Below the pieces are notes generated by a model, which was not told the origin of the DNA, made no database searches, and saw only the letters and a program-made list of their open reading frames with translations. A DNA stretch of 64,000 bases, taken from Fontibacillus panacisegetis. Its GTDB lineage: Bacteria > Bacillota > Bacilli > Paenibacillales > Paenibacillaceae. The position numbers were made by a program, and so were the translations under genes. The DNA lies in NCBI RefSeq assembly GCF_900102215.1, contig NZ_FNBG01000005.1:62001-126000 (forward strand), in the 5' to 3' direction. Positions 6,299-32,721 of this stretch are shown piece after piece. Every line of letters begins with the position of its first letter. Position 1 is the stretch's first letter.

Positions 6299-6409
6299 TT
6301 AATCCTCGTCCCAGTTTTTGGAGTATCCCTTTTTAATGGCAAAAAATACAGGTACGATGATCAGCACTGCGATGATTATAGCGGCAACGATGGTGACACC
6401 TAGAAGCAT
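6299..6409 (-). CDS. 36-aa single-pass membrane peptide
   Basis: On the minus strand, ATG 6407-6409 preceded by GGAGG opens a 36-residue frame: hydrophobic stretch LLGVTIVAAIIIAVLIIVPV, then FFAIKKGYSKNWDED and TAA. The pattern is that of a single-pass small membrane protein with a charged cytoplasmic tail. The same frame is also open from ATG 6458-6460, which would give 53 aa (MFFLYSWGIILNGGIPPM at the front), but no ribosome site precedes that codon. Function is unknown. It converges on the small lipoprotein gene. Confidence 0.6.
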   Translation of the reverse strand: MLLGVTIVAAIIIAVLIIVPVFFAIKKGYSKNWDED

Positions 6410-27487: not shown

Positions 27488-30400
27488 TTATTTAGTAAAG
27501 GGAACTGCAGATGAAGCAGCAGATTCACCTGAAGCATTGACTGCTGTGACCTGAATATACCCACTGGCAGATTCCGGGGTGAAGGTGAACTGGTTAATTG
27601 AAGGTGAACCGATTCTTGAGAAAACACCGCCTGTTGATTCAAAGAAATAAACGTTGTAATTCAGAACCTGATCCGTGCTTGCGTTAGCGCTCCAAGTAAC
27701 TGTGAGGCTTCCGTTGTCATTCTGAATGCTTACCTGTGAAGGAGCTGCAGGCAGAGTGACCTCGGCTCCCGGATTTGATGGATCCTCCCCTTCACCGGTA
27801 TCTGAGCCGTCTGGAATCGAAGCATTAGATCCAACAGTTGCACTTGGAGAAGATTCTTTACCAGCGACGTCAACGGCTGTAACGTAGTAGGAGTTGCCGG
27901 AACCGGAATCGGAAAATGCGGTTGATTGTCCAATAAGAATTGATTTACCCGTGTATACAAAATCAGTACCATTTCCTGATTTGTACAGACGATATCCTAC
28001 AACATCCTTTTCGCTATTGTTATTAAAGCTGATCGTTACAGATCCATCGGTCGCTGAAAGACTTACATTAGCTGGTGATGCCGGTGCATGACCATCATCA
28101 ACCCGAGGATCGACCTTGGTTGGCGCATCCTCACCTGCATCCTTCGGAAGATAATAGCTGATTGATTTGTGGCCGCCTCTCATCGATGAGAATGCTTTAT
28201 TAAGCTCTTCTATCAATTCCTTGATCGGCTTTTCACGCTTAACTACAACCTTCTCAAGCAGCATATCAGATGGTGTAGATTCCTTCGGAATGTAGTTGAC
28301 ATCCCCGTAAGGAATATATTTCATTCTGACAAGTACATCGTCCGCTTCTTTTGGTACATATTTGGAGTTGAAAATGTCAGTAACTAACTTGCCGGCCTGT
28401 CTGGTCAGATCCGTAGGCAACTTGCCGCTATATCCTGATACGGTTTTTGAAACGATGCCGTCAGGCTTTTCAAATGATGGAGTAACGAACAAATCTCCAA
28501 CATTTTCAGTTACTTCATTCATCACGAGAGCCCAGATCGAACGAGCTCTTGATTTACCTTTATCCGATAGTGTATTTTTTGGCTCCTTGTAGCCGATCCA
28601 TACACCAAGAGTTACGTCAGGAGAGTACCCCATAAACCAGACATCGGCATAATTTTGGGTCGTTCCTGTCTTGCCGACAACAGGTATTTTGCCGTAGTTT
28701 TTAAATGAGCTCTTGATAGATTTGGCTGTTCCGCTAGTTATAACAGTACGCAGCATATCTGTCATAAGGTATGCAGTTTGCTTGGAGAACACCCTCTGCG
28801 GCTTTGCTTCTTGCTTGTAAACCACATTTCCTTTTGAGTCCGTAATTTTTGCGATCATATAGGCATCGTTGAATTCGCCGCCGTTAGCAATTGAGCTGTA
28901 GGCATTTGTTAATTCTTCAACGGTTACGCCGTATTTGAGACCACCAAGCACCCCGGTTTGTGCTCCATAATCCTGCTCATCGATCGTCGTGATTCCAAGC
29001 TTTTTGGTGAAATCCCAAGCCTTCTCGATGCCAAGCGTCTGATTGAACACCTTGAGTGCAGGAATGTTGCGTGATTCGTTAAGAGCAGTACGTGCAGTCA
29101 CAAGGCCCTTGTATCCACCGCTAGAATTGACTGGAATATGGTAGCCCTTTGAATAATCCCTCAAAATGAGAGGGGAATCGTCTATAATACTCGCTGGTTG
29201 AATAAGTCCCTCATCCATAGCCGGTAAATAGGCAGCGATAGGCTTCATAGTTGATCCGGGCTGTCTAACCATTTGAGTAGCGTAATTCATCTGCTCAGTG
29301 TAAAAATCCCGGCCTTCAATCATTCCGAGGATAGCTCCGGTATGATTGTCAATCATCATAGCGGCGACTTGTTCAAGTCCCTTGGTTTCGCTGTAAGGTG
29401 AGAAATTCTCCGCGTTATCTGACACTCTGTGCATTGCGTTGTACACTTTTTTGTCAATGGTTGTGTATACCCGATAACCTCCGGTTAAGAGCTCTTGACG
29501 AGCCTCCTCGATCATTGCGCTATTTTTGGCAAGTTCCTCTTTGGTCATGTCAGGATTGTTAATCATTGCAATAATGAGTGCGCCTTGTCGCTCTGTCTCA
29601 AGCATCAAATAAGGGAATGTTTCATAAGCCTTTTTTGTCTGAGGCGCCAGAGAACCTTTAATATCGAATGCGAGAGCTTCGTTGTATTGAGAGTTGTTGA
29701 TTTTGTTCTCTTCGAGCATTCGCTTCAGTACGAGCTGTTGACGCTTAACGGCACGGTTAAATGCTCCCTCGTTAAACTCTCCCTTACCGTTAAAAGCTGA
29801 ATATGAGGACGGAAGCTGAGGAAGACCAGCCAAATAAGCTGCTTGAGCGATATTTATTTCATCCAGATTTGACTGATTGAAAATTCCTTTGGCTGCAGCC
29901 TTGATTCCGTACACTTGATATCCGTTAGAGCCATTGCCAAATGGTACCTTATTTAAGTAGGCTGTAAGGATTTCGTCTTTGGTTAGAAAGCGTTCCAACC
30001 GCACGGCAAGTAAAATTTCTTTGACTTTACGGTTGTCCGTTTTATCCAGATTCAAAAATACACGGCGTGCCAGCTGCTGGGTTAGGGTGCTGCCGCCGGT
30101 CTGAATGTCTTCCTTAAGCAACCTTTGCTTAACCGCACGCATTGTCCCGGCAAAATCGATTCCGATATGTTCATTGAAATTGTTGTCCTCAATTGCGATG
30201 ACAGCATCAATGACAGATGTGGGTATTTCTTCATAGCTGACAGGGCGTCTATCTTCTTCAGAACGAAGCTGTCCGATAGGCTGCCCATCACGGAAGTATG
30301 CAAATCCAGTAATTTCGTTATAATTGATTTTCTGTTCGATATCGGCACCCGAGCGTACCGGATCGTCCTTGACGATCGAGGAGACGTAGCCGAAAACGGC

Positions 30401-30571
30401 GCCCCCTACAAACAGGATTCCAGCAAAACCGAGCAGAACAAGCCAACCTAATGTCGCCCAAACCCAGCGTCCCTTTCTTTTCTTTGGAACCTTCTGAGCG
30501 TTCTGAGCCGGTTTTTTGCTCCGGGACATTCGTTGATTATCTCCGGAGTTGTTCTCGTTCTCATGAACCAT
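27488..30571 (-). CDS. ponA: Penicillin-binding protein 1A with two FN3 domains
   Basis: Bifunctional peptidoglycan glycosyltransferase/transpeptidase, 1027 aa, single membrane anchor at ~35-60. The transglycosylase block has EDNNFNEHIGIDF and GGSTLTQQLARRVFL. The transpeptidase has the active serine in RQPGSTMKP, SRN in NESRNIPALK, and KTGTTQ. After ~790 the Pro/Ser-rich linker is followed by two fibronectin type III-like domains (NVSLSATDGSVTISF... and SQVSIQNDNGSLTVTW...), which make it longer than the ~914 aa PBP1 of B. subtilis. The ATG at 30569-30571 has AAAGGAGG. The promoter side faces the tyrS T-box. Confidence 0.93.
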   Translation of the reverse strand: MVHENENNSGDNQRMSRSKKPAQNAQKVPKKRKGRWVWATLGWLVLLGFAGILFVGGAVFGYVSSIVKDDPVRSGADIEQKINYNEITGFAYFRDGQPIGQLRSEEDRRPVSYEEIPTSVIDAVIAIEDNNFNEHIGIDFAGTMRAVKQRLLKEDIQTGGSTLTQQLARRVFLNLDKTDNRKVKEILLAVRLERFLTKDEILTAYLNKVPFGNGSNGYQVYGIKAAAKGIFNQSNLDEINIAQAAYLAGLPQLPSSYSAFNGKGEFNEGAFNRAVKRQQLVLKRMLEENKINNSQYNEALAFDIKGSLAPQTKKAYETFPYLMLETERQGALIIAMINNPDMTKEELAKNSAMIEEARQELLTGGYRVYTTIDKKVYNAMHRVSDNAENFSPYSETKGLEQVAAMMIDNHTGAILGMIEGRDFYTEQMNYATQMVRQPGSTMKPIAAYLPAMDEGLIQPASIIDDSPLILRDYSKGYHIPVNSSGGYKGLVTARTALNESRNIPALKVFNQTLGIEKAWDFTKKLGITTIDEQDYGAQTGVLGGLKYGVTVEELTNAYSSIANGGEFNDAYMIAKITDSKGNVVYKQEAKPQRVFSKQTAYLMTDMLRTVITSGTAKSIKSSFKNYGKIPVVGKTGTTQNYADVWFMGYSPDVTLGVWIGYKEPKNTLSDKGKSRARSIWALVMNEVTENVGDLFVTPSFEKPDGIVSKTVSGYSGKLPTDLTRQAGKLVTDIFNSKYVPKEADDVLVRMKYIPYGDVNYIPKESTPSDMLLEKVVVKREKPIKELIEELNKAFSSMRGGHKSISYYLPKDAGEDAPTKVDPRVDDGHAPASPANVSLSATDGSVTISFNNNSEKDVVGYRLYKSGNGTDFVYTGKSILIGQSTAFSDSGSGNSYYVTAVDVAGKESSPSATVGSNASIPDGSDTGEGEDPSNPGAEVTLPAAPSQVSIQNDNGSLTVTWSANASTDQVLNYNVYFFESTGGVFSRIGSPSINQFTFTPESASGYIQVTAVNASGESAASSAVPFTK

Positions 30572-30689: not shown

Positions 30690-31008
30690 GATCTAATTAT
30701 AAATCGATAAAGGCTTAGAAAGACTTTAGTAGAAGGCGAAATCCCGCTGCGCAGAGAATCGGTGGTTGCTGTAAACCGAATGAGCGAATCGTTTTTGAAT
30801 TACCGTCTGGAGCTGTCCGGGGGAAAGTGCAGATTTTTTCAGGCACAAGTAGCCCGGCACCGGGATAACCGTTATTGTAATGAAGTGAAAGCCGACTTTT
30901 GTCGTAAAATATGCTGATGCAGCATTGACGTTGAATGGCGGTTTTAATTAGGGTGGTAACGCGAGCAACTCCTTCCTCGTCCCTTTGGATGAGAAGGGGT
31001 TTTTTTGT
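30690..31008 (+). ncRNA. Tyr-specific T-box riboswitch leader
   Basis: tRNA-sensing leader. Stem I elements are visible: GCGCAGAGAATCGGTGG, then GAATTACCGTCTGGAGCTG, where the specifier codon is TAC (tyrosine, 30801-30803). The T-box core AGGGTGGTAACGCG is at 30950-30963. The terminator stem AACTCCTTCCTCGTCC / GGATGAGAAGGGGTT is at 30967-31001, with a T run to 31006. Uncharged tRNA-Tyr would pair via the T-box and favour read-through. The downstream gene is a damaged tyrS, so the switch is intact while its target is not. Confidence 0.9.
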
Positions 31009-31047
31009 GTATATCGATAATTATTATTTTAGGGAGGAATCTGATTT

Positions 31048-32060
31048 ATGAAGTGGGATGAACTTACACAAGTCCAGCGTGAAGAAGTAGAGCGGCAGCT
31101 TAAGGTGATCTCTCGAGGAGTCGTAGAAATAGTTCCGGAAGATGAATTGAAACAAAAATTGATGAAATCGGTTTCAAAATTTTAGACCCTGAGAAAACTA
31201 AGGTACATTTCAACTCTGAATGGCTAGCGCCTATGACTTTTGCCGATGTAGTGAAGTTGTCAGCGAAGGTAACTGTGGCGCGTATGCTCGAAAGAGACGA
31301 TTTTACAAAACGCTACCAAGGTGGATTGCCAATTAGTATTCATGAGTTTTTCTATCCGCTAATGCAAGGCATGGACTCTGTAGCGCTTGAGAGTGACATC
31401 GAGCTTGGCGGCACAGATCAGAAATTCAATCTATTGATGGGTAGAACGCTGCAGAAGGAGTACGGAAAAGATACTCAAATCGCGATCACGACACCGATTA
31501 TCGAAGGTCTGGATGGCGTACAGAAGATGAGTAAGAGTCTTGGCAACTATATTGGTATCGATGAAGAGCCGAATGAAATTTACGGTAAAGCGATGTCTGT
31601 GCCTGATGAGCTTATGGTGAAATATTATGAGCTTGTAACTGATTTGTCTAATGAGGAGCTTGAGATTATAGCTCAAGGTATTAAGGAAGGAACGATGCAT
31701 CCACGTGATGCAAAAATGAAGCTAGCATACACTTTGGTGCGTATGTTCCACGGAGTGGAAGCGGCTGAAGCGGCGCAAGAGTACTTCGTAACGGTATTTC
31801 AACAACGCGCTTTGCCTGATGATATTGCGGAGTTTGTACTTCCTGAAGAAGAGTTTGAGGGCGGCAAGATGCGTTTGATCAAATTGTTGACTCTTCTTGA
31901 ATTTGCAGCCTCCAATGGTGAAGCGAGACGCAGCATCCAGCAGGGCGCAGTTAAGCTGAATGAAGAGAAGCTTACAGATCCAAATGCTGAAATCGAAATT
32001 GCCAGTGGGGACATTATTCAAGCAGGTAAACGTAAGTTTGCCAAGCTGCTGAGAAAATAG
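31048..32060 (+). pseudogene. tyrS: Tyrosyl-tRNA synthetase, internally deleted and frameshifted
   Basis: ATG 31048 after GGGAGG gives a normal start (MKWDELTQVQREEVERQL, then [18 protein letters not shown]), but the frame shifts and stops at 31183-31185. A second frame (+2) resumes at ~31158 with [18 protein letters not shown] and runs to 32060 with intact TDQKFN, KMSKS ([10 protein letters not shown]) and a C-terminal S4 domain. About 80 codons between them, including the catalytic HIGH motif and much of the tyrosine pocket, are missing. Only ~337 of ~420 codons remain. It cannot be an active TyrRS. A second synthetase (TyrZ or other) must exist elsewhere, or the assembly is wrong. Confidence 0.9.
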
Positions 32061-32121: not shown

Positions 32122-32721
32122 TTAACGGTTGTAGAATTCGACGATTTGTTTTTCGTCGATTTCTTGAGACAACTCAGCGCGTTCAGGAAGACGGATGAAC
32201 TTGCCTTCAACTGCGTTATCGTTGAACTCAAGGTAAGCTGGAAGATGTGAGCGGTTTTCCAAAGCTTCTTTCACAGAAGAAAGACCGCGGCTTCTTTCAC
32301 GAAGACCAATTACATCGCCAAGGCTTACACGGTAAGAAGCGATATCCACTTTCTTGCCGTTAACAGTTATGTGACCGTGAGCTACCAATTGACGCGCACC
32401 AGCACGGGAATTAGCAAAACCAAGACGGTATACGAGGTTGTCCAGACGGCTTTCAAGCAGGATCATGAAGTTTTCACCGGCAATACCTGCCATTTTTTGT
32501 GCTCTGTTAAACAATGTGCGGAATTGTTTTTCACCCAAACCGTACATATGGCGCAATTTTTGTTTTTCTTGAAGCTGCATACCATAGTTACTGATTTTTC
32601 TCCGTTGAGTTGGACCATGTTGTCCAGGAGGGAAAGGGCGTTTCAAATCTTTTCCAGTTCCGCTCAAAGAAATGCCAAGGCGGCGGCTGAGTTTAAATTT
32701 AGGACCAGTGTAACGTGCCAT
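32122..32721 (-). CDS. rpsD: 30S ribosomal protein S4
   Basis: Primary 16S rRNA-binding protein of the small subunit and a repressor of its own mRNA in Bacillus. 199 aa; N-terminal [17 protein letters not shown]4 RNA-binding domain at ~90-150 ([30 protein letters not shown]). The ATG at 32719-32721 is preceded by AAAGGAG. As in Bacillus, it stands alone and has a structured leader. Confidence 0.97.

Follow-up and report, generated by a model that had tools for sequence, protein, structure and literature searches.

The window, a stretch of 64,000 nucleotides from Fontibacillus panacisegetis (G000:C43:62001-126000; genome 5.26 Mb), carries a whole tyrosine T-box leader in front of a tyrosyl-tRNA synthetase gene that is broken by an internal deletion. 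We regard this gene as a recent pseudogene of a TyrZ-type synthetase, made dispensable by an intact TyrS-type enzyme under its own tyrosine T-box, and assign a probability of roughly 0.88 to this reading. The genome holds both genes, and relatives carry differing lesions and several stages of decay. The window is thus most likely a mid-course snapshot of recurrent synthetase swapping. The features of the locus are listed in Table 1.

Table 1. Features of the leader, the broken gene and its neighbours in the window
Feature	Position	Strand	Basis or remark
Presumed penicillin-binding protein 1A (PBP1A)-like gene, upstream neighbour	27488..30571	-	Left border in 40 genomes
Tyrosine T-box leader, whole	30707..30987	+	Rfam RF00230, 106 bits, model 1-219/219
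Specifier codon TAC (Tyr)	30801..30803	+	Letters read directly
Antiterminator core AGGGTGGTAACGCGAG	30950..30965	+	Leader alignment
Terminator hairpin and T run	30969..31006	+	Leader alignment, folding
TyrZ-type gene, 5' remnant	31048..31185	+	45 aa: 41 true codons and 4 out of frame
Deletion junction	31171..31172	+	241 bases absent, frameshift; alignment with 21 intact genes
3' remnant, 304-codon open frame, first ATG 31233	31146..32060	+	Open reading frames, TIGR00234
Presumed ribosomal protein S4-like gene rpsD, convergent downstream neighbour	32122..32721	-	Right border

The leader passed the cut-off of RF00230 at full model length (106 vs. a gathering score of 93 bits). The leader alignment comprised this sequence and 21 TyrZ leaders from relatives in the genus, without the leader of G022, which was below the cut-off. 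The TAC specifier was in register with the GAATTAC or GAAATAC of the 21 relatives, and its amino acid agreed with the downstream remnant, which belongs to TIGR00234 (tyrosine--tRNA ligase). The core TGGTAACGCG was identical in all leaders of this alignment (22 of 22), whereas the consensus core of RF00230 is TGGTACCGCG; the latter was also seen in 7 leaders from other genera. The terminator region (30947-31010) had a folding energy of -25.3 kcal/mol (z -3.9), equalled by 0 of 200 shuffles, and the stem contained one C more than in the 21 relatives, which formed a bulge. At 135 columns invariant in the other leaders, 5 departures were found, 2 of which were insertions, and the additional C of the terminator stem is counted among the 5; among the 21 relatives, G026 (8) alone exceeded this number. 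Promoter prediction on the + strand ahead of the leader reported none. Stem I, the TAC specifier, the antiterminator core and the terminator of the known RF00230 tyrosine leaders were all present, in agreement with the preliminary description, which had recognized a tyrosine T-box with all hallmarks and TAC at 30801. The locus differs from working T-box loci in that the gene behind the leader is broken, and the earlier proposal of a riboswitch that controls a dead gene is well supported. Judging from the sequence, control of the leader by uncharged tRNA-Tyr would persist.

The preliminary description had recommended that the deletion be measured against the genes of relatives. Alignment with 21 intact tyrZ genes of the genus (each 1254 bases and gap-free; the tyrZ of G061 was excluded from the 22 intact ones) showed that 241 bases were missing as one block. 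The deletion and the frameshift described earlier were therefore right and the estimate of about 245 bases was close, while the break was moved from 31150-31160 to 31171/31172 and the lost residues from 38-119 to about 42-122 of 417. As had been stated, the HIGH motif was gone (HVGH, residues 62-65, lay within the deletion), and KMSKS (31524-31538) and the S4 end were kept. Since the deleted length is not divisible by three, the reading frame was lost, and a single frame of about 417 codons was replaced by two frames of 45 aa and 304 codons. The residues from 31233 matched TIGR00234 with 259.9 bits (profile 138-403 of 406). Neither the HIGH-type motif nor a complete catalytic domain, by which a functional tyrosyl-tRNA synthetase is recognized, was present, and the remnant is predicted to be without synthetase activity.

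Over its remaining 272-275 residues, the remnant was 72-85% identical to the 21 listed intact enzymes of the genus. The best named protein matches came from Paenibacillus sanguinis, P. barengoltzii and Fontibacillus phaseoli (records identical or very close to the window may be missing from this search), and the nearest solved chains were 6byq, 6bqy and 1h3e. The junction sequence, with up to 3 mismatches allowed, occurred in 1 of 40 genus genomes, namely G000 itself. The earlier suggestion that the transcript could still be translated into two peptides stood for the 45-aa frame, which is preceded by a Shine-Dalgarno-like GGGAGG at 31032-31037 (direct reading). By eye, no such stretch was found ahead of 31233; translation of the C-terminal fragment is therefore doubtful. 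A programmed frameshift joining both frames was considered and rejected: no canonical slippery heptamer was seen by eye, and the HIGH-type motif would stay missing.

Genome search revealed the second TyrRS that had been anticipated, an intact enzyme of 420 aa with HIGH and KFGKT at G000:C36:139125-140384. Its gene carried its own T-box (99.8 bits) with GAATTAC at the specifier, and its nearest solved relative was 2ts1. The two enzymes shared about 31% identity and were encoded at separate loci (C36 and C43). We take them to be of the TyrS-type and the TyrZ-type (KMSKS class), respectively, and presume that the TyrZ of Bacillus subtilis is of the same class as that of the window. Since an intact second synthetase with its own T-box is present in the genome, the broken tyrZ appears dispensable. 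Near this tyrS, a second elongation factor Ts-like gene was observed (L073:10535-11329; domain match G000:C36:144750-145175); the other elongation factor Ts-like gene of G000 was located at C41:422879-423373.

The two enzymes were surveyed in 40 genomes of the genus. TyrZ alone was found in 19, TyrS alone in 17 (16 and G034), both in 3 (G011, G026 and G032), and both with a broken TyrZ in G000; TyrZ and TyrS queries concurred on the genomes holding TyrS. At the site between PBP1A and rpsD, a T-box over the cut-off was present in 21/22 intact-tyrZ genomes (exception G022) and in 0/17 TyrS-only genomes. The spacing of the neighbours in the TyrS-only genomes was about 230-650 bases in 15/17 and about 3 kb in G034 and G059. 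A C-terminal relic of tyrZ remained in G034 (56.7 bits; top of 1700 shuffles 2.8), and 5' stem I stumps of the T-box remained in G014, G024 and G002 (0/200 shuffles each). With nhmmer, the stumps of G014 and G024 scored 14.4 and 7.5 bits (shuffle maximum 5.2); that of G002 was unlisted and was counted on the shuffles. Two further candidate stumps were not counted, that of G017 (9/200 shuffles as good, 0.7 bits) and that of G004 (0/200 shuffles but one score unit over the best shuffle, and absent from the nhmmer list).

The scan for TyrS leaders covered 20 of 24 TyrS loci (L173-L176 were left out), and leaders over the cut-off were found at 14 of these 20. Two TyrS-type genes each were observed in G008, G003 and G030 (L077/L174, L081/L175 and L087/L176); in G008 and G003 the two genes differ in kind, and in G030 they are close copies. 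The tyrS of G034 (L091, about 6300-6360) was split by an N run with doubled flanks, which is an assembly scar and no real frameshift.

In a sample of 296 genomes, evenly drawn from the order, TyrZ alone was found in 78, unbroken TyrZ with a further match (match only) in 79, weak TyrS-like matches only in 128 (two in 14) and none in 2. Among the matches listed, at least 9 genomes had a broken tyrZ. Genomes were taken as candidates for a broken gene when their match scored oddly, fell into several pieces or contained stops; of the 11 checked, 8 were broken and 3 (G307, G246 and G067) were whole. The genomes with a broken tyrZ (G000, G179, G280, G185, G211, G252, G076, G157 and G140) all had a TyrS match (9/9). 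Broken tyrZ thus occurred in 9/88 multi-match genomes vs. 0/78 TyrZ-only genomes, among the matches listed (Fisher p 0.0036, relatedness uncorrected); the p value was 0.007 without G000, and 0.029 without G000 and both single-stop cases.

The nine broken genes were distributed over 8 genus codes, and their lesions differed, comprising frameshifts, internal deletions and single stops. The eight further loci are L197, L198 and L202-L207. A T-box of 95-123 bits preceded the remnant in seven of them, each with GAATTAC in the specifier region, and the locus of G185 was without one. The TyrS partners of these eight had open frames of 424-469 codons, their wholeness being judged by length and match; KFGK was present in 8/8, KFGKT in 3/8 and H[ILVM]GH in 6/8.

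The 304-codon frame was free of stops. As 112 single changes could create a stop, neutral change is unlikely to have exceeded about 0.08 substitutions per site (5% bound). The ratio of the end branch of the remnant to the housekeeping branch was 0.94, vs. a pooled 0.79 in 18 TyrZ-only genomes. Of 167 residues that do not vary among the other 21 enzymes, 5 were altered in G000; the same test gave 0-2 changes in 19/21, 4 in G032 and 10 in G026. The stop-free frame, the near-housekeeping branch and the few changes in residues and leader indicate a probably recent loss of tyrZ; the leader may only now be starting to decay. We also considered whether selection on TyrZ is relaxed where both enzymes occur: the pooled branch ratio was 1.17 for the four such genomes vs. 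0.79 for TyrZ-only genomes (single ones reach 1.65), and the explanation was set aside on the uneven ratios (G026 1.59, G032 0.96, G000 0.94 and G011 0.77). A dN/dS comparison of G000 with six relatives was discarded because synonymous sites were saturated.

A quick tree of the locus genes (20 kb, 21/40 genomes) placed G000 beside G015, G027 and G016, which are TyrZ-only, and G059 and G034, which are TyrS-only (SH-aLRT 98). In the PBP1A and rpsD tree of all 40 genomes, G000 was without firm placement. On this quick tree, the TyrZ-only state required 6 changes, and starred branches made 5 of these unavoidable; the synthetase state thus changed repeatedly in the genus. The TyrS tree grouped G000 with the G012 group at 63/89, and a grouping with G059/G034 was also allowed (AU p 0.418). 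A 199-aa gene adjoining tyrS was common to G000 and the G012 group; searches of G015, G027, G016, G059, G034, G003, G008 and G030 gave no copy. This common neighbour gives only a hint that tyrS may have been acquired by horizontal transfer.

These observations suggest the following course. Two synthetase forms would coexist for a time in the genus and the order, and with TyrS sufficient, the first lesion in tyrZ would cost little. In the window, one 241-base deletion removed the HIGH-type part of the catalytic domain and ruined the frame. The leader would usually be spared by the first lesion because it presents a small target compared with the 1254-base gene; it would outlast this hit, and the site would be cleared afterwards. 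As the leader has barely decayed, transcription should still be induced by uncharged tRNA-Tyr, yielding a message of no use. The window would then represent a loss just past the first inactivating lesion, with leader and remnant still uncleared.

The gene could instead be whole, the 241 bases having been lost during assembly. The genome is a draft of 76 contigs, and the relative G034 has a synthetase gene interrupted by a gap of Ns whose flanks are duplicated. However, the junction in the window is clean and lies within a 184,958-base contig free of Ns, the gene itself included, and by eye it shows no repeat longer than one or two bases. The deleted part was also absent from the rest of the assembly when sought with a TyrZ query, which matched only residues 1-44 and 115-415 on C43, and the tyrS of C36 at 31%. 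Above all, errors of assembly would ignore the presence of TyrS, whereas broken tyrZ was confined to TyrS-bearing genomes among the matches listed; such an error is therefore unlikely. No second strain of the species was found.

The conserved sequence of the remnant fits a recent pseudogene and a fragment kept for another use alike. Under the latter, the S4-bearing C-terminal part might bind RNA, or the orphan T-box might sponge uncharged tRNA-Tyr and tune the tyrS leader. The core of the leader and the 3' frame are indeed undamaged, and the T-box was kept at 7/8 other broken loci of the order; but most first lesions would miss so small a target anyway, and no leader over the cut-off was left in 17/17 TyrS-only genomes of the genus. 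Moreover, the G000 leader has changed at 5/135 invariant columns, more than in 20/21 relatives, and the C-terminal fragment has no start signal by eye. We consider a new use very unlikely, and give just as little credence to a scheme in which the orphan leader would bind uncharged tRNA-Tyr, compete with the tyrS leader, shift the induction of tyrS and so ease the change of synthetase. A recent pseudogene beside an intact TyrS-type enzyme remains the preferred reading.

Discussion of synthetase replacement has relied largely on its outcomes, and in the available text of PMC3191353 a reviewer calls the intermediate seldom observed. The genus and the order together offer a series of two enzymes, a first lesion with a whole leader, several lesions, a relic, a stump and a cleared site, so that the order in which synthetase genes are lost and riboswitches decay, and the pace of both, can be measured by comparison. 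For annotation, a whole T-box is no guarantee of a working gene behind it. No earlier description of this T-box and broken synthetase was found in the open-licence literature; the event is of a known kind, and is unusually well documented here.

According to the available text of PMC3191353, homeoalleles are replaced by insertion elsewhere, coexistence and loss, or by recombination of flanks, and a reviewer asked there for the reason why so few intermediates with two synthetases are seen. The genus likewise has two patchily distributed TyrRS forms, with divergent genes of the same function at two loci and patchy loss of one form, and coexistence and loss are both visible. In Gamma- and Deltaproteobacteria, according to the same text, both forms of TyrRS occupy one syntenic context, whereas the forms described here lie at different loci, and 88/296 genomes of the order have TyrZ and a further match; the coexistence route is thus the one seen. 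Bacillus subtilis likewise has two TyrRS forms, a TyrS/TyrZ pair, in one Firmicute. Its TyrZ is described in the available text of PMC9437257 as an extra, highly selective enzyme, and a title cited there (Williams-Wagner 2015) indicates that tyrZ has a T-box. In contrast to this extra enzyme, the TyrZ-type is the sole tyrosyl-tRNA synthetase in 19/40 genomes of the genus.
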